Shown here: positions 7,520-15,830 of the stretch, in pieces
How positions within the stretch are numbered: the first letter of the stretch is position 1
Layout: each line of letters starts with the position of its first letter
Source of the DNA: Variibacter sp.
GTDB lineage: Bacteria > Pseudomonadota > Alphaproteobacteria > Rhizobiales > Xanthobacteraceae
Length of the DNA: 64,000 nt
Direction: 5' to 3'
Assembly (NCBI GenBank): GCA_019689555.1
Contig: JADGHE010000011.1
Location: forward strand, 1-64,000
The notes under the pieces: model-generated
Databases searched by the model: none
What the model was told of the DNA's origin: nothing
The model's input: only the letters and a program-made list of their open reading frames with translations
Translations under genes and position numbers: made by a program

Positions 7520-8437
7520 TCATGGCCGCGCGGGCGGCCGCGGGCCTTCGACCGGCGGGAGCGACTTGATGTAGAGCGCGATCGCCCTGCGATCGGCGGC
7601 GGGAAGCTGGGAGGTGTTGCGCACGACGGCGGCCATGGTGGCGCCGACCGTGTCGCCTTCCGGCGTCCGGCCCGAGGTCAGAAGCTCCTCGATGTCGCCC
7701 ACCGACCAGTCCTTCAGCGCGGCCTGGGTGATGTTGGGGACCCATCCTTCGCCCTCCGGGTTCGGCCCGCCGGCGAAGCGCTGGCGCGGCCTGATGCCGC
7801 CGAGCGCATCGCGCGGGCTGTGGCATTCGGCACAGTGGGCGAGGCTCGAGACGAGATAGGCGCCGCGGTTCCACTCGGCCGACTGCGCGGGGTCGGGCCT
7901 GAACGGTTCGCCGTCGAGATAGACGAGCTTCCACAGGCCGAGCCCCCGGCGCACGTTGAAGGGAAACGGCAGGGCGTGCGGGCGCGCCTTTCCCTCGACG
8001 GCGGGCAGCGTCTTGAGGAAGGCGAAGAGGTCGCGCAGGTCCTCCATGCGGGCGCGCTGGTAGGAGGTGTAGGGAAAGGCGGGATAGAGATGCTCGCCGG
8101 CGGGCGAGACGCCCTTCACCATCGCGGTGACGAACTGCGCCTCCGTCCAGGCGCCGATGCCGTCCTCGGGATGGGGCGAGATGTTGGGCGCATAGAAGAT
8201 CCCGAACGGCGACTTGAGCGCGCGGCCGCCGCCGAGGCGGAAACGATCGTCCTGGTTCGGCGTCGTGTGGCAGGAGGCGCAGCCGCCTGCGAAGAAGACG
8301 GTGCGTCCGTTGTCGAGATCGGGCGCGTATGGCCCGAGCGTCGCGGCCGCGTCTCCTGCCGGGCGCGTCAAAAGCCAGAACGCCGCAACGCCGATGATCG
8401 CTACGCCGACCGCGAGGATCACCAGCTTGCGCGCCAT
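7520..8437 (-). CDS. Membrane-anchored dihaem cytochrome c
   Basis: Protein of 305 residues from the ATG at 8437 (GGAG eight bases upstream; a GTG lies directly before it). One N-terminal membrane helix (about residues 4-23) anchors two periplasmic cytochrome c domains, with haem sites CASCH at 53-57 and CAECH at 202-206. The layout resembles cytochrome subunits of membrane alcohol, aldehyde and gluconate dehydrogenases, which carry electrons to the respiratory chain. Those subunits usually have three haems; this has two. It lies downstream of a cytochrome c556-like gene and a molybdenum hydroxylase, which suggests an electron-transfer role for one of them. Confidence 0.9.
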   Translation of the reverse strand: MARKLVILAVGVAIIGVAAFWLLTRPAGDAAATLGPYAPDLDNGRTVFFAGGCASCHTTPNQDDRFRLGGGRALKSPFGIFYAPNISPHPEDGIGAWTEAQFVTAMVKGVSPAGEHLYPAFPYTSYQRARMEDLRDLFAFLKTLPAVEGKARPHALPFPFNVRRGLGLWKLVYLDGEPFRPDPAQSAEWNRGAYLVSSLAHCAECHSPRDALGGIRPRQRFAGGPNPEGEGWVPNITQAALKDWSVGDIEELLTSGRTPEGDTVGATMAAVVRNTSQLPAADRRAIALYIKSLPPVEGPRPPARP

Positions 8438-8479
8438 CACCGGGTCTCCACGGGCCCGCCCGAAACGAGCGGCAGGCGC

Positions 8480-8500
8480 GCCCGCCGCCGGCCGGCGGGC
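8480..8500. promoter_or_regulatory. GC-rich hairpin between the two cytochrome genes
   Basis: GCCCGCCG (8480-8487) and CGGCGGGC (8493-8500) form an eight-bp stem with a five-base loop, extended by GGCGC/GCGCC outside. It lies in the 93-bp gap between the cytochrome c556 and dihaem cytochrome genes. Without a T-tract it is more likely an mRNA-processing or attenuation hairpin than a full terminator. Confidence 0.35.
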
Positions 8501-8533
8501 GGGGCGCCTCGATCCGACCCGCGAGGCCGGCGC

Positions 8534-8983
8534 TCAGCGGACCCGGACGCGATAGGATTCATGGCAGTCGTCGCAGGTCTTGTTCACCACCTGATAGACC
8601 GTCTTCAGCTCGTCGAGGTTTTTTGCCTTCGAGCGGTTCTCGTTCACGGCCTTGGTGAAATTCGCGAGCTTCGCTTCGAAATCCGCCTTGTTCTCCCAAA
8701 TCTTCGCCGAGGAGCTGAAATTCGCATCGGGAGCGACGCCGATGGAGTTCGCCGGCCAGAGGGGCGGCAGCTTCGCCGCGATCTCGGCGAGCTTCGCAAA
8801 GGCGGCATCGACCTTGGCCTGTTCGTAGGGTTCCTGTCCCCGTACCATCTGCGTCACCGGGCGCCAGGCATCGCGCCAGACCGACTTCATGAGAGCGTTG
8901 CGCTGCTCCAGTGCTCCCGATTGGGCCAACACAGCCGTCGTGGCAAAGGCGAGGGCCGCGACGGCAAATCCAGTACGGAACAT
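8534..8983 (-). CDS. Cytochrome c'/c556-type protein
   Basis: Protein of 149 residues with a Sec signal peptide (about 20 residues, ending AVLA) and one haem site CDDCH at residues 137-141, very near the C terminus. C-terminal haem attachment in a four-helix bundle is the mark of cytochrome c'/c556 proteins, periplasmic carriers or NO-binding proteins. The ATG at 8983 is chosen because AAAGGAG lies upstream and the signal peptide begins there. It is 162 bp downstream of the molybdenum hydroxylase gene on the same strand. Confidence 0.9.
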   Translation of the reverse strand: MFRTGFAVAALAFATTAVLAQSGALEQRNALMKSVWRDAWRPVTQMVRGQEPYEQAKVDAAFAKLAEIAAKLPPLWPANSIGVAPDANFSSSAKIWENKADFEAKLANFTKAVNENRSKAKNLDELKTVYQVVNKTCDDCHESYRVRVR

Positions 8984-9145
8984 CCGAATCTCCTTTCTAC
9001 GCAGGTCGCTACGCGGCTTGCGCCGCGGCGACGCCAACACCATCGGTCTGGAATTATTCCGCTGCGCAGGCGGCCCGCCGCACCCCGGCGCGAAGGGCGG
9101 CCATGCAAGCTGCGGACGCACCCGCCTCCTCGCACCGCGGGCTCA

Positions 9146-11452
9146 TCACAGCGTGTGCAGGCGCCGCCCCTCTTCCAACGCCTGCCACACGCGCTCGGGC
9201 GTCGCCGGCATGTCGATGTGGCGAATGCGATAAGCGCGCCACAGCGCATCGACGATGGCGTTCATGATCGCCGGGCAGGAGCCGATGGCGCCCGCCTCCC
9301 CTGCCCCCTTGACGCCGAGCGCGTTGGTGGCGCAGCGCACGTTGCGCGTCTCGAAGGTGAACGCCGGCGTGTCGCTCGCCTTCGGCAGCGGGTAGTCCAT
9401 CAGGCTCGCGGTGACGAGCTGGCCGGAATCGGCGTCGTAGACCGCGCGTTCGAACAGCGCCTGGCCGAGGCCCTGCACGGCGCCGCCGTGGATCTGGCCG
9501 GCGAGCAGCAGCGGGTTGAGGGTCACGCCGAAATCGTCGACGACGACGTAATTGACGATCTCCACGCGGCCCGTCGCCGGGTCGATCTCCACCTCTGCGA
9601 CATGCGTGCCGTTCGGATAGGTGGGGGCCGGCGGCGTGCAGGTGTCGGCCGCGGTGAGCAGATTGCGGTCGGACGGCGCGCGCGCAAGCTCCGCGAACGA
9701 GACCGCGCGGTCGGTGCCGGCGACGCGCACCGCGCCCTCGGCGATTTCGAGATCGCTGACGCTGGCTTCGAGCTTGTCGGCGGCGAGTTTCTTGAGGTTG
9801 TCGGCGAGCTTGCGCGCGGCGCCCGAGACGGCGACGCCGCCGACGGGAATCGAGCTCGATCCGCCGGTGCCGGCGCCGGTGGCGATCAGCGCCGTGTCGC
9901 CCTGCACGACGCGCACGCGCTCCGGCGGCAGCCCCAGATGCTCGGCGACGAGCTGCGCATAGGCGGTGTGGTGGCCCTGGCCCGTCGACTGCGAGCCGAT
10001 GAGCACCGTCACGCCGCCGTCGTCGTCGAGCCGAAGAGTCGCGGTCTCGGGGCCGAGCGCGCCGCAGGCCTCGATGTAGCTCGCAAGGCCGATGCCGCGC
10101 AGCCGGCCCTGCTCCGCGGCGCGCTCGGCCCGCGCCTCGAACCCGCTCCAGTCCGCGATCTGCTGGGCGCGCGCCATGTGGCCGGCGAACTCGCCGGAAT
10201 CGTAGACCTTGCCCGTCGGCGTCTTGTAGGGCATCGCCTGCGGCGCGATGAAATTGCGCCGGCGCAGCTCGTCGCGCCCGATGCCGAGCTCGCGCGCCGC
10301 GACGTCCACGAGCCGCTCGATGACATAGGCCGCCTCGGGCCGGCCCGCGCCGCGGTAGGCGTCCACCGGAACGGTGTTGGTGTAGACGCCGCGGATGCGC
10401 ACATGGCAGGCGGGGAAATCGTACAGGCCCGGCAGCATCTCGGCGCCGATCACCGGGATGTAAGGCGCAAAGAGCGAGAGATAGGCGCCCATGTCGGCGA
10501 GCGTGTCGACCGCGAGGGCGAGGAATTTGCCGTCCCTGTCGAGCGCGAGCCGCGCGGTCGTGATGTTGTCCCGCCCCTGCGCATCGGCGAGGAAATGCTC
10601 CGTGCGGTCGGACATCCAGCGCACCGGCCGCTTGAGCGCCTTCGCCGCGATGACGACCAGCGCATATTCCCGATAGGGGAAGAACTTGGTGCCGAACCCG
10701 CCGCCGACGTCGGGCGTCACGACCCGCATCTTCTCCGGCGGCATGCGGAGCACCGACTCGCAGAGCACGTCGCGGATGAGGTGCGGGCCCTGGCTCGGCA
10801 CCGTGAGCGTCACGTGATCCTTCTCGGCATCGTATTCGGCGAGGGCGCCGCGCGTGTCGAGATAATTGGTCACGACCCGCGGATTTACGAGCTTCAAGGT
10901 GACGACATGCGCGGCGCGCGCGAAGGCGGCCTCGGTCTTGGCCTTGTCGCCCAGCGTTGCCTCAAACGCGACATTGCGCGGAACGCTCGGCCACACCGCG
11001 GGCGCGCCGTCGGCCACCGCCCTCTCCGCGTCCACGACATGGGGAAGCGCCTCCCATGAGACGGCGATCGCCTCGGCGGCGTCCTTCGCCTGCTCCAGCG
11101 TGTCGGCGACGACGAAGGCGACCGCGTCGCCCACGTGACGCACGACCTCGCGCGCGAGCAGCGGATAGGGCGGCGGCGAGACCTTCACGCCCTCCGGGAT
11201 GCCGACGCAGGGCAGATGGCCGAAGGCGGCGACATCCTCGCCGGTCAGGACCAGGCGGACCCCCGGCATGGCGCGCGCGGCCTCGATATCCGCGAGGCGG
11301 AAGCGCGCATGCGCGTGCGGCGAGCGCAGCACCACCGCCTGGAGCGCGCCGTCCGCGGCGATGTCGGCCACATAGCGCCCTGCCCCGCGCACGAGCGCGG
11401 CGTCCTCCTTGCGGGTCACAGCCTGGCCGAAGCCGAAACTGACGGGTCGCAT
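9146..11452 (-). CDS. Molybdenum hydroxylase large subunit (form II CoxL-like)
   Basis: Protein of 768 residues in the xanthine oxidase/CO dehydrogenase large-subunit family, binding molybdopterin cytosine dinucleotide. Motifs: VGDAVAFVVA near 107, DVGGGFGTK at 248-256, AYRGAGR at 365-371, GQGHHTAYAQ in the Mo-binding region, and KGAGEAG with the expected active-site Glu near 719. AYRGAGR marks form II CoxL-like proteins, whose substrates are mostly unknown; form I CO dehydrogenases have AYxCSFR. No FAD (CoxM) or 2Fe-2S (CoxS) subunit gene is nearby. Its ATG lies five bases after the RND permease stop, so it may be co-transcribed with the pump. Confidence 0.92.
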   Translation of the reverse strand: MRPVSFGFGQAVTRKEDAALVRGAGRYVADIAADGALQAVVLRSPHAHARFRLADIEAARAMPGVRLVLTGEDVAAFGHLPCVGIPEGVKVSPPPYPLLAREVVRHVGDAVAFVVADTLEQAKDAAEAIAVSWEALPHVVDAERAVADGAPAVWPSVPRNVAFEATLGDKAKTEAAFARAAHVVTLKLVNPRVVTNYLDTRGALAEYDAEKDHVTLTVPSQGPHLIRDVLCESVLRMPPEKMRVVTPDVGGGFGTKFFPYREYALVVIAAKALKRPVRWMSDRTEHFLADAQGRDNITTARLALDRDGKFLALAVDTLADMGAYLSLFAPYIPVIGAEMLPGLYDFPACHVRIRGVYTNTVPVDAYRGAGRPEAAYVIERLVDVAARELGIGRDELRRRNFIAPQAMPYKTPTGKVYDSGEFAGHMARAQQIADWSGFEARAERAAEQGRLRGIGLASYIEACGALGPETATLRLDDDGGVTVLIGSQSTGQGHHTAYAQLVAEHLGLPPERVRVVQGDTALIATGAGTGGSSSIPVGGVAVSGAARKLADNLKKLAADKLEASVSDLEIAEGAVRVAGTDRAVSFAELARAPSDRNLLTAADTCTPPAPTYPNGTHVAEVEIDPATGRVEIVNYVVVDDFGVTLNPLLLAGQIHGGAVQGLGQALFERAVYDADSGQLVTASLMDYPLPKASDTPAFTFETRNVRCATNALGVKGAGEAGAIGSCPAIMNAIVDALWRAYRIRHIDMPATPERVWQALEEGRRLHTL

Positions 11453-11457
11453 GGGTC

Positions 11458-14400
11458 CTACTCCGCAGGATGTGACTGCGCTGCCGCGGCCGCCTCCCTC
11501 GTCCGGCGACGGGAGAGCCGCGCGCCGATGCCGCTCGAAATGACATAGAAGGCCGGCGTGAAGATCAAGCCGAACAGGGTCACCCCGATCATCCCGGCGA
11601 AGACCGCCGTGCCCAGCGCGTGCCGCAGCTCGGCGCCCGCCCCGGTGGCGAAGACCAGCGGGCTCACGCCCAGGATGAAGGCGAGCGACGTCATGATGAT
11701 CGGCCGCATGCGCAGCCGCGCGGCCTCGACCGCCGCCTCGGTGCGGCTGCGCCCGCGCTCCTCGAGCTGGCGGGCGAACTCGACGATCAGGATCGCGTTC
11801 TTGGCCGCAAGCCCGATCAGCACGATGAAGCCGACCTGCGTGAGGATATTGTTGTCCATGCCGCGCAGCACGACGCCGGAGATCGCGGCCACGAGGCACA
11901 TCGGCACGATGAGGATGACCGCAAAGGGCAGCGTCAGGCTCTCGTACTGCGCGGCGAGCACCAGAAACACGAACACCACCGCGAGGCCGAAGGCGAACAT
12001 CGCCGTGTTGCCGGCGCGGAGCTGCTGAAAGGCGAGCGTCGTCCACTCGGTGGCGAAGCCGTCCGGCAGCGTCTCGGCGGCGAGCCGCTCCATGATCGCG
12101 ATCGCCTGCCCCTGCGAGTAGCCGGGCGCGGCGCTGCCATCGAGCTCGGCCGCCGGATAGAGATTGTAGCGCGGCACGCGGTAGGGGCCGGAGACGTCCT
12201 GCACGGTCGTGAACGAGCCGAGCGGCACCGCCGCCCCGACATTGTTGCGCACGCGGATCTTGAGCACGTCCTCGGGATCGAGGCGCTCGCCGCTCTCGGC
12301 CTGCGCGACGACGCGGAAGGTGCGGCCGAACAGGTTGAAGTCGTTGACGTAGGACGAGCCGAGATAGGTCTGCAGGGCGGCGAACACGTCGGAGACGTTG
12401 ATGCCGAGGAGCTGCGCCTTGGTGCGGTCGATGTCGAGATAGATCTGCGGGGTCGCGGTCTCGAAGAGCGAGAAGACCTGCTGGACGCCCGGCGTCTGGC
12501 TCGCGCGCGCCATCATCGCATAGACGGCGTTCTGCAGCGCCTCCGGCCCGCGCCCGGCGCGGTCCTCGACCATCATACGGAAGCCGCCGGCATTGCCGAT
12601 GCCCGCCACCGGCGGGGGCTGAATCACGAGCGCGAGCCCCTCCCGTATGGCGCTCAGCCGTTTGAACAGCTCGCCCTGGATCGCGCCCGCGGACAGCGCC
12701 GGGTCGTGGGCGCGGCGCGCGAAAGAATCGAGCACGACGAAGATCGCGCCGGAGTTCGGCGCGTTCGTGAAGGTCGCACCGGAGAAGCCGACAATGTTGA
12801 CCGCATGCGCGACCCCCGGCGTCGTGAGCGCGAGGTCGACCGCGCGGCGCATCACCGCGTCGGTGCGCGCGAGCGACGCGCCGGGCGGCAACTGCACGGC
12901 GATGATGAGGTAGCCGCGGTCCACCTGGGGGATGAAGCCCTGCGGCGTCTTGCGGAACTCGTTGAGACCGAAGGCGAGAACCCCGGCATAGAGCATCACC
13001 ATGAGCACCGCGAACCGCACCGCCTTGCGCGCCACCCAGCTGTAGCCGCGCGCGAAGCGCTCGAACCCGAAATTGAAGCCGCGGAAGAAGAGGCGCAGCG
13101 GCCACTCCCAGAGGCGCGGCCGGACCTCCGCATGCGGCTTGAGCAGCAGCGCGCACATGGCGGGCGACAGCGTGAGCGAGACGACGAGCGAGATCACCGT
13201 CGCGCCGGCGATGGTGAGTGCGAACTGCCGGTAGAACTGGCCGGAAATGCCGGTGATGAACGCCGCCGGCACGAACACCGCGCAGAGCACGAGCGCGATC
13301 GCGACCAGCGCCCAGCCAACCTCGTCCATCGACTTCACCGCCGCCTCGCGCGGCCTCAGGCCGGTGGCGATGTTGCGCTCCACATTCTCCACCACGACGA
13401 TCGCGTCGTCGACGACGATGCCGATCGCCAACACCAGGCCCGAGAGCGTGAGATTGTTCAGCGTGAAGCCGAACGCGCCCATGAGGAAGAACGTGCCGAT
13501 GAGCGAGATCGGGATCGCGAGGATCGGGATGATGGCGGCGCGCCACGTCTGCAGGAAGAGGATGATCACCAGCACGACGAAGAGGATCGCCTCGACGATC
13601 GTGCGGATGACGGCGTTGACCGATTCCTGAATGAACTGCGTCGGATTGTAGACGATCGCGTGCTTCACGCCGTCCGGAAAGCGCGCCGACAGCCGCTCCA
13701 TCTCCTGGATGATGGCCTGCGCGGTCGCGAGCGCGTTGGAGCCCGGCCGCTGGAAGATCGCGAGCGCGACCGCCGGGTCGCGGTCGAGATAGGAGTTCGA
13801 GGAATAGTCCTGCGCCGCGAGCTCCACGCGGGCGACGTCCTTGAGCCGCACCACGGCGGTGGGCGTGGTCTTGACCACGATCCCGGCGAACTGGTCGGGA
13901 TCGGCGAGGCGGCCGAGCGTGCGCACCGCGATCTGGAACGCGCGCGGATCGTCGACCGGCGGCTGGTTGAGCACGCCGGAGGCGACCTGGACGTTCTGCC
14001 CCAGCAGCGCCTGCACCACGTCCGTCGCCGTCAGGTTGAGTGACTGCAGCCGGTCGGGATCGAGCCAGACCCGCATGGCGTAGTCGCGGCTGCCGAACAC
14101 GATGATGGAGCCGACCCCGTCGATGCGGGTGAGAACGTCCTTGATTTCGAGATTGGCGTAGTTGGAGATGAACAGCGGGTCCCGCGACTGGTCGGGCGAA
14201 TAGAGGTGCACGACCATCATCAGGTCGGGCGAGCTCTTGTTCACCGTGACGCCGATCTGGCGCACCTCCTGCGGCAAGCGCGGCTGGACGATCGCGACAC
14301 GATTCTGCACCTGCACCTGAGCCTGATCGAGATCGGTGCCGATGTCGAACGTGACCGAGATGGAAAAGCGGCCGTCGGCGGTCGAGTTCGAGGAGATGTA

Positions 14401-14634
14401 AAGCATCCCCTCGACGCCGTTGATCTGCTCCTCGATCGGCGCCACCACCGTGGTCGCCACCACGTCGGCGCTCGCGCCCGGATACTGGCCCTGCACGCTG
14501 ATGATCGGCGGCGCGATCTCGGGATATTGCGCGATGGGCAGGCGCCCGAAGGACACGCCGCCGAGGATGATCAGCACGATCGACACGACGGAGGCGAAGA
14601 TCGGCCGGTCGATGAAGAAGCGCGAAATCTGCAT
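11458..14634 (-). CDS. RND efflux pump permease (AcrB/MexB type)
   Basis: Protein of 1058 residues, full length for a hydrophobe/amphiphile efflux RND permease. It drives export of drugs or metabolites across the outer membrane using the proton gradient. It has the N-terminal helix, a large periplasmic loop (about 35-340), the membrane block with proton-relay residues Asp409-Asp410 in GIVVDDAIVVVE, and a second block with the relay Lys in GLAAKNAILIVEFA. It starts 17 bases after the adaptor stop, so the two form an operon. No TolC-type outer-membrane partner is adjacent. Confidence 0.95.
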   Translation of the reverse strand: MQISRFFIDRPIFASVVSIVLIILGGVSFGRLPIAQYPEIAPPIISVQGQYPGASADVVATTVVAPIEEQINGVEGMLYISSNSTADGRFSISVTFDIGTDLDQAQVQVQNRVAIVQPRLPQEVRQIGVTVNKSSPDLMMVVHLYSPDQSRDPLFISNYANLEIKDVLTRIDGVGSIIVFGSRDYAMRVWLDPDRLQSLNLTATDVVQALLGQNVQVASGVLNQPPVDDPRAFQIAVRTLGRLADPDQFAGIVVKTTPTAVVRLKDVARVELAAQDYSSNSYLDRDPAVALAIFQRPGSNALATAQAIIQEMERLSARFPDGVKHAIVYNPTQFIQESVNAVIRTIVEAILFVVLVIILFLQTWRAAIIPILAIPISLIGTFFLMGAFGFTLNNLTLSGLVLAIGIVVDDAIVVVENVERNIATGLRPREAAVKSMDEVGWALVAIALVLCAVFVPAAFITGISGQFYRQFALTIAGATVISLVVSLTLSPAMCALLLKPHAEVRPRLWEWPLRLFFRGFNFGFERFARGYSWVARKAVRFAVLMVMLYAGVLAFGLNEFRKTPQGFIPQVDRGYLIIAVQLPPGASLARTDAVMRRAVDLALTTPGVAHAVNIVGFSGATFTNAPNSGAIFVVLDSFARRAHDPALSAGAIQGELFKRLSAIREGLALVIQPPPVAGIGNAGGFRMMVEDRAGRGPEALQNAVYAMMARASQTPGVQQVFSLFETATPQIYLDIDRTKAQLLGINVSDVFAALQTYLGSSYVNDFNLFGRTFRVVAQAESGERLDPEDVLKIRVRNNVGAAVPLGSFTTVQDVSGPYRVPRYNLYPAAELDGSAAPGYSQGQAIAIMERLAAETLPDGFATEWTTLAFQQLRAGNTAMFAFGLAVVFVFLVLAAQYESLTLPFAVILIVPMCLVAAISGVVLRGMDNNILTQVGFIVLIGLAAKNAILIVEFARQLEERGRSRTEAAVEAARLRMRPIIMTSLAFILGVSPLVFATGAGAELRHALGTAVFAGMIGVTLFGLIFTPAFYVISSGIGARLSRRRTREAAAAAQSHPAE

Positions 14635-14651: not shown

Positions 14652-15830
14652 TCAGCCCGCCTTCGCCTGCGGGCTCGGGGTGGGCGGCTCGACGCCCTCC
14701 TGCGGCGTGACCTTCTGGCCGGGGCGCACGCGCATGAGGCCGTCGACGATCACCCGATCGTCCGGCTTGAGCCCCTCTTTCACCACGCGCAGGCCGTCGA
14801 CGAGAGGACCGAGCTTCACGTAGCGCTGGCGCGCGACGTTTTCGCCGTCGACGGTGAGCACGAATTTGCGCACCTGTTCGCTGCCGATCGCCCCGTCGGG
14901 AATGAGCAGGGCCTGGTAGGGCGCCGAGGCCGGGACCTCCACGCGCGCGAACATGCCGGGCGTGAACAGCCCGTCCCCGTTGGCGAGAACCGCCCGGCCG
15001 CGAATCGTGCCCGAGGTGCGGTCGATTACGTTGTCGACGAAGTCCATGGTTCCCTGGTGCGGGAAGCCCTGCTCGTCGAGCAGCTTGAGCGCCACCTTCG
15101 TCCGCGCGCCGCGGCTCGCGATGTCCGGCCCCTCCTCGGCGAGGCGCTTGTAGCGCAGATAGGAGGCCTCGTCGAAGGTGAACTCGAAGCGGATCGGGTC
15201 GATGGAGACGATCGTCGCGAGAAGCGTCGTGTTGCCGCCCGTCCCGCCGGTGACGAGATTGCCCGGGGAGACGCGCCGGTCGCCGATGCGGCCCGCGATG
15301 GGCGCCCGCAATTCGGTGAATTCGAGATCGAGCGTCGCCTGCCGCACCGCCGCCTCGTTGGCGGCGACGGACGCCTCGGCGGTCTTCTTCGCCTGAACGC
15401 GCTGCTCGTACACCTGCTCGGAGATCGTGCGCTCGCGCACGAGCTGCTGCGCGCGGGCGAGATCGGCCTCCGCATAGGCAAGGTTGGCCCGCGCCTGAGC
15501 GAGATTCGCCTTCGCCTGATCGAGCGCATTCTGGAACGGCCGACGGTCAATCGTGAACAGGAGGTCGCCCTGCTTCACGAGCTGGCCGTCGACGAAGTGC
15601 ACCTTCTCCAGATAACCGGACACACGCGCGCGCACCTCGACCATATCGACCGCGACGAAGCGGCCGACATATTCGTCCTTGTCGACGATCATGCGCTGGA
15701 CCGGCTTGGCGACCGTGACCGCCGGCGGGGGCGGCGCCGGGGCGGGCTGCTGAGCCTCGCCGCAGCCGGCGAGGGCGCCCGTCAGAAACAACGCAAGGAC
15801 CGTGTTGCGCGCGTCAACGAGCGCTGCCAT
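14652..15830 (-). CDS. RND periplasmic adaptor lipoprotein (AcrA/MexA type)
   Basis: Protein of 392 residues, the membrane-fusion adaptor of the adjacent RND pump. The signal peptide ends in lipobox LAGC with Cys23 as the lipid site, followed by a Pro-rich linker. The lipoyl half-motif GYLEKVHFVDGQLVKQGDLLF, a long Ala-rich helical hairpin (about 95-165, DQAKANLAQARANLAYAEADLARA region) and beta-barrel domains follow in the expected order. GGAGG lies six bases before the ATG. It is the first gene of the adaptor-permease operon; no TetR or other regulator is next to it. Confidence 0.95.
   Translation of the reverse strand: MAALVDARNTVLALFLTGALAGCGEAQQPAPAPPPPAVTVAKPVQRMIVDKDEYVGRFVAVDMVEVRARVSGYLEKVHFVDGQLVKQGDLLFTIDRRPFQNALDQAKANLAQARANLAYAEADLARAQQLVRERTISEQVYEQRVQAKKTAEASVAANEAAVRQATLDLEFTELRAPIAGRIGDRRVSPGNLVTGGTGGNTTLLATIVSIDPIRFEFTFDEASYLRYKRLAEEGPDIASRGARTKVALKLLDEQGFPHQGTMDFVDNVIDRTSGTIRGRAVLANGDGLFTPGMFARVEVPASAPYQALLIPDGAIGSEQVRKFVLTVDGENVARQRYVKLGPLVDGLRVVKEGLKPDDRVIVDGLMRVRPGQKVTPQEGVEPPTPSPQAKAG

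Follow-up and report, generated by a model that had tools for sequence, protein, structure and literature searches.

The window analysed here, a 64,000-nucleotide stretch of Variibacter sp. DNA, encodes a molybdenum hydroxylase large subunit (CoxL-like) with two cytochrome genes behind it, raising the question of which partners such a subunit would use and where its electrons would go. The initial annotation, made from the letters and open reading frames of the window, had offered two answers: subunits encoded elsewhere, or an unusual electron path.

The lone large subunit and its surroundings

The CoxL-like open reading frame is intact, running from an ATG at 11452 to a stop at 9146 on the negative strand and encoding 768 amino acids (Table 1). 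Its product carries the Ald_Xan_dh_C (hammerhead), MoCoBD_1 and MoCoBD_2 domains, every one above its Pfam cut-off, which is the domain set of xanthine oxidase/CODH-type large subunits. The predicted structure has a mean pLDDT of 87.9 and a pTM of 0.88, and it superposes on the CODH and quinoline 2-oxidoreductase large chains with a TM of 0.88. Both motifs named in the initial annotation are present and its coordinates for the gene are exact; AYRGAGR is invariant at 7 of 7 positions among 30 aligned homologs, and the active-site glutamate loop is a GAGE sequence, unchanged among 30 aligned homologs at G716, G718 and E719. Glu719 is presumably the catalytic glutamate, going by the role of this residue in the xanthine oxidase family. 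No CXXCH haem motif was found by pattern scan in the 768 residues.

According to PMC13240472 and PMC13203968, AYRGAGR is the mark of form II enzymes as opposed to the form I motif. By this mark the protein is of form II type; it has AYRGAGR at residues 365-371 and no AYxCSFR-type motif of form I. Gene order agrees with neither form, as CoxM and CoxS are absent from the contig and the flanks, leaving no coxMSL order as in form I and no position between coxS and coxM as in form II coxSLM operons. None of the NCBIfam models scores above its own cut-off for this protein; the highest score, 607 bits against a cut-off of 790, goes to glyceraldehyde dehydrogenase alpha, and the CODH models reach 525 of 991 and 576 of 950 bits. 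Filing the protein as a CODH was ruled out on the missing form I motif and the missed CODH cut-offs.

Table 1. Features on and around the lone large-subunit gene in the window.
Feature	Position	Strand	Basis
Two-haem cytochrome c, CXXCH at residues 54 and 203, hydrophobic N-terminal stretch (by eye)	7520..8440	-	
Cytochrome c'-family protein (c556-like), PF01322, one CXXCH at residue 137	8534..8983	-	
Lone form II-type molybdenum hydroxylase large subunit (CoxL-like)	9146..11452	-	MoCoBD domains, fold
GAGE, residues 716-719, putative catalytic Glu719	9296..9307	-	Invariance in 30 sequences
AYRGAGR, residues 365-371; form II mark, without the form I (Mo-Cu CODH) motif	10340..10360	-	
RND (AcrB-family) pump gene, upstream of CoxL	11458..14634	-	
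Membrane-fusion (HlyD-type) protein gene, adjoining the RND pump gene	14652..15830	-	

The neighbourhood is as first described, with no FAD (CoxM) or 2Fe-2S (CoxS) subunit gene in the window's initial 24 kb or on the whole contig, and with the two cytochrome genes 3′ of CoxL on the same strand. The gap between CoxL and the c556-like gene is 162 nt, and the stop of the RND pump gene lies 5 nt (11453-11457) ahead of the CoxL start; the two upstream genes, for the pump and the membrane-fusion protein, are absent from the initial annotation's account. No promoter- or terminator-like match was found in 8300-9300, a result of little weight as hardly any would be expected.

Orthologs of the lone CoxL were defined at no less than 54% identity and 890 bits, giving 53 loci in 52 of 101 genomes, those of the window included; the next match below this set scores 808 bits. 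Named relatives at 59-68% include Bradyrhizobium, Afipia, Rhodopseudomonas and Methylobacterium. Flanks were fetched for 51 ortholog loci (L046-L096, with the G046 locus left out) and for the more distant L097 and L098, mostly at 8-9 kb per side and shorter at contig ends. A tblastn scan with the six CoxS and CoxM proteins of the window's own genome found neither subunit in the flanks of any of these 53 fetched loci. Neighbouring genes were counted in 52 loci, L046-L096 and the window. An RND gene lies upstream of CoxL in 17 of these and immediately so in 11; a general association with RND pumps was dismissed because it is upstream in just those 17.

Candidate partners in an unlinked operon

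The genome of the window (3.31 Mb in 108 contigs, 99.2% complete) contains nine matches to MoCoBD_2, three to Fer2_2 and three to FAD_binding_5. All three Fer2_2 and all three FAD_binding_5 proteins adjoin a large subunit, on contigs C39, C68 and C9. Seven of the nine MoCoBD_2 proteins are full-length, the one on C5 being cut by a contig end and the one on C84 being a remnant; as three of the seven are paired with small (S) and medium (M) subunits, four intact large subunits stand alone, on C91 (the window), C71, C36 and C90. The unpaired CoxS or CoxM genes that the initial annotation had proposed to look for are absent from this assembly. The matching pair, on C68, has a CoxL of its own, and sharing of the S and M subunits must therefore be assumed in this genome.

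The further intact lone large subunits on C71, C36 and C90 are loci L099, L100 and L101; after that on C36 comes a gene resembling an NAD aldehyde dehydrogenase, a label given by reading the sequence. In the remnant (C84:73616-73915; loci L105 and L009), N- and C-terminal parts meet with the middle gone, in a frame of 213 residues.

A closed genome, G060, consists of a single contig of 3,402,093 bases with exactly one match each to MoCoBD_2, Fer2_2 and FAD_binding_5 at E ≤ 0.001. The MoCoBD_2 match belongs to its lone CoxL, at 1182912-1185194; the other two matches lie side by side at 2,398,046-2,398,858, 1.2 Mb from CoxL, and no CoxL occurs in the 17 kb fetched around this S-M operon. As each kind of subunit is present once, these proteins are each other's sole candidate partners, unless a subunit lies beyond the Pfam E-value of 0.001. 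Among the genomes checked, partner identity is forced in G060 only, most of the others holding more S and M sets. Between G060 and its congener G019, dN/dS is 0.11 for the lone CoxL, 0.12 for CoxS and 0.11 for CoxM; the unrelated neighbour MurJ also gives 0.11, and the likeness of these values therefore shows maintenance, not partnership. The Nitrobacter winogradskyi sequence NC_007406 is printed at 3402093 in PMC2928768, and the identity of G060 with this organism rests on that match. A 2025 paper (PMC12815253) describes one Mo-CODH cluster in N. winogradskyi with its large-subunit gene missing; the lone CoxL of G060 would be this missing subunit.

The G060 operon encodes CoxG, CoxS, CoxM, an AAA ATPase, a VWA-CoxE protein, XdhC_CoxI and XdhC_C proteins and a MobA-like protein. 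Searches with CoxS and CoxM in the 101 genomes recovered adjacent S-M pairs with no room for a large subunit between them. The CoxM of C68 has matches of at least 344 bits in 48 of the 101 genomes, and the operon was fetched in 38 of the 48. In 23 of the 38 operons S is directly followed by M and CoxL is absent from the fetched stretch, and in 15, including that of the window's genome (C68), CoxL lies between S and M; the 23 of 38 is not a frequency, because apparent adjacency of S and M was the reason for choosing many of the loci, namely the greater part of the first batch and some of the second. The lone CoxL is found elsewhere in 18 of the 23 genomes with a CoxL-less operon, the other five (G008, G011, G021, G051 and G054) lacking this ortholog. 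Counts of large against small subunits over many genomes were set aside as a measure, since at most 21 large-subunit candidates were scored per genome and some enzymes of the family are without a medium subunit.

Wider searches over 397 genomes of the order detected the lone CoxL in 125 (E ≤ 1e-255) and members of the C68-type CoxM family in 216 (E ≤ 1e-60), with the best 2 and best 6 candidates per genome scored and both searches taken as covering the same 397 genomes. The CoxM family occurs in all 125 genomes with the lone CoxL, CoxM occurs without it in 91 and neither is found in 181, counts that are uncorrected for phylogeny and genome size. Such a one-way pattern, from CoxL to CoxM, is what dependence predicts. 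Within the first 101 genomes the CoxM family is present in 51 of 52 genomes with a lone CoxL; the exception, G003 (98% complete, 6% contamination), lacks a member of the CoxM family at E ≤ 1e-60 and carries two lone CoxLs. In family f1 alone the association is weak (39/40 vs 17/21, p 0.04). CoxS of the C68-type family was confirmed where it was looked at, and the operon itself was seen in the 38 genomes. The first of the two answers in the initial annotation, that the subunits are encoded elsewhere, is thus supported by the presence of the CoxM family in every lone-CoxL genome but G003, by the unlinked position of the operon and by the closed genome, where the C68-type S-M pair is the only possible partner.

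In a quick tree of 117 large subunits, with rows chosen largely by likeness to the window protein and near-copies included, the 26 operon-borne CoxLs group as a single clade (SH-aLRT 99); their sister group (support 95) consists of 88 lone rows and one linked row. The lone CoxLs thus form a separate clade beside the operon-borne form II proteins, and all four intact lone large subunits of the window's genome belong to it. The labels lone and linked change twice on the tree, compared with a mean of 26 changes in 500 shuffles; some of the loci are short (L161 and L097, for example), such that a CoxS may have been missed, and L094 was dropped as too short. The linked row, L122, is a 3.6-kb contig carrying CoxS (68%) and CoxM (57%) of the C68-type family and, directly after them, a CoxL of the lone clade, the placement of which is unsure because of its long branch.

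The lone CoxL is quite probably the catalytic subunit of a cytoplasmic trimer whose small and medium subunits come from the unlinked coxGS(L)MDEF operon. It would bind CoxS and CoxM of the C68 type; C68 itself would provide the 2Fe-2S protein CoxS and the FAD protein CoxM in the window's genome, and the same unlinked operon would supply the CoxG, CoxD/E, XdhC-type and MobA-like assembly proteins. The substrate would be hydroxylated at the molybdenum of the lone CoxL, with electrons passing from there first to the 2Fe-2S centre, then to FAD and finally into the respiratory chain, as is expected from the family. The C68 pair would be common to the operon's own CoxL and the lone CoxL, and perhaps to the three further lone ones. 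More tentatively, and with somewhat less than even confidence, the lone CoxLs may represent a large-subunit clade without dedicated partners, in which one module of S, M and assembly proteins serves interchangeable catalytic subunits with different substrates. Under such a plug-in architecture, as many as five large subunits of the window's genome, those of C68, C91, C71, C36 and C90, would draw on a single S-M set.

The cytochrome pair and competing explanations

The adjacency of CoxL and cytochrome genes in relatives, which the initial annotation had put forward as a check, is borne out in part. In 33 of the 52 loci the c556 gene lies 3′ of CoxL in the same orientation, immediately so in 30 (gaps of 23-286 nt), and the adjacency is therefore real; the dihaem gene lies 3′ of CoxL in 25 loci, and 18 have neither cytochrome. 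These counts are what speaks for electrons passing straight from the lone CoxL to c556 and the dihaem protein, without 2Fe-2S or FAD subunits, as does the recurrence of the arrangement: CoxL and c556 adjoin without the dihaem gene in a different neighbourhood (seven loci, L077, L079-L082, L084 and L088), and three loci from other families (L150, L153 and L154) bring CoxL, c556 and dihaem genes together. However, 13 family-f1 genomes have the dihaem gene (at least 399 bits) and no ortholog of this CoxL, and in all 13 the c556-dihaem pair stands by itself, with an RND gene upstream in 10 and a DMT gene downstream in 9 of the 13 fetched stretches; at least two of the 13 (G002 and G055) have a more distant lone CoxL elsewhere (L097, L098). 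The pair also stands together but apart from the CoxL of the same genome in L239, L242 and L244, and the dihaem gene is without an adjoining c556 in L240 and L241, with L243 and L245 being pieces cut by contig ends. Six genomes with a lone CoxL (G019, G023, G031, G038, G046 and G060) have no dihaem match at E ≤ 1e-50. In a c556 tree of 74 proteins, of modest support with many weak forks and two poorly filled rows, sequences from loci with and without CoxL interleave. The N-terminus of the c556-like protein looks exported and, by eye, the cytochromes look exported where CoxL does not; a pattern scan of the first 40 residues of CoxL found no RR (twin-arginine) motif. The cytochromes are accordingly no obligate partner: since CoxL and the pair are each found alone, the pair is a unit of its own that often adjoins CoxL, and electrons would reach it indirectly at most. 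Direct transfer to the cytochromes is very improbable, and the unusual electron path of the initial annotation is given up, with a link to CoxL by regulation or further down the respiratory chain being possible. That annotation had named two observations that would count against it, matching CoxS and CoxM genes elsewhere and unconserved cytochrome neighbours; the outcome is mixed, as candidate partners do lie elsewhere but the cytochrome neighbourhood is still partly conserved.

Two other explanations leave the cytochromes aside. The lone CoxL might pair with the S-M set of C39 or C9 in place of the C68-type operon, a reading that draws on the presence of three S-M sets in the window's genome and on G003, where a lone CoxL occurs with no CoxM of the C68-type family; it is distinctly unlikely, as G060 has the C68-type pair only and the lone CoxLs are sister to the C68-type CoxLs, with those of C39 and C9 outside both clades, each on a long branch. 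That the gene is instead a decaying or moonlighting leftover without a redox role would fit the absence of subunit genes nearby, and another large-subunit gene of the same genome, on C84, is plainly a remnant. Such decay is hard to reconcile with the lack of an internal stop in 51 of the 53 ortholog matches, with invariant catalytic motifs, with the low dN/dS (0.29 between the window and G027, in addition to the 0.11 of the G060/G019 pair) and with the presence of the gene in 125 of the 397 genomes of the order, and it is highly doubtful.

A b561-type cytochrome b gene lies close to the CoxL-c556 genes in L077, L079-L082, L084 and L088.

Relation to known molybdenum hydroxylases

Among the nearest known systems are the form II 'CO dehydrogenases' (coxSLM), with which the lone CoxL has AYRGAGR in common; it is 49% identical to the C68 CoxL and would use the same CoxS, CoxM, CoxG, CoxD, CoxE and XdhC set. 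It differs from them in lying outside a coxSLM operon and in its separate sister clade, and in being one of four intact copies in the genome without S and M genes of their own. Form II enzymes are distinguished by motif together with coxSLM order (PMC13203968). Form I Mo-Cu CODHs (Oligotropha/Afipia carboxidovorans, Hydrogenophaga and Mycobacterium) have the same fold and domain order and, as 1n5w, 1ffu and 8uem, provide the best solved-structure matches of the lone CoxL, which is set apart from them by the missing AYxCSFR motif, by scores far under the NCBIfam cut-offs and by not being part of a coxMSL operon.

The same large-subunit fold is found in the glyceraldehyde, quinoline and 6-hydroxypseudooxynicotine molybdenum hydroxylases (4zoh, 1t3q and 7dqx), in which the large subunit is encoded together with small and medium subunits. 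Periplasmic molybdenum aldehyde and nicotinate dehydrogenases of the IorAB, NicAB and AldFGH types have a cytochrome c subunit. These likewise combine a molybdenum hydroxylase gene with a neighbouring gene for a multi-haem cytochrome c, but the lone CoxL has no adjoining small subunit and, by pattern, no Tat-like motif in its first 40 residues, and its cytochromes are separable.

If the lone CoxLs use the unlinked S-M operon, clusters lacking CoxL, such as that of N. winogradskyi, would be complete, and unlinked partners may explain why that cluster seems to be without its catalytic part. A genome could then hold more distinct molybdenum hydroxylases than S-M operons, and the function of form II enzymes could be approached in a simple genome that holds each of the three subunits once. 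A survey of marine form I genes ascribes solitary coxL to incomplete genome recovery (PMC13240472). The present arrangement was not found described in the titles and abstract openings searched for form II or lone coxL, Nitrobacter coxL and shared subunits, a search mostly outside subscription journals that leaves novelty unproven.

CO is unlikely to be the substrate of the lone CoxL, because the form I motif is absent and because of the papers on form II, which leave its activity unsettled or regard it as probably not acting on CO (PMC6794299, PMC13240472 and PMC13203968); PMC11771112 notes disagreement between studies, part of which treat form II as active. In 16 of 20 loci (L106-L116, L118-L121 and L125), the S-M operon has on its CoxG side a branched-chain amino acid-type ABC transporter encoded on the other strand, some kilobases off in L125, and the transporter's position possibly hints at the class of substrate.
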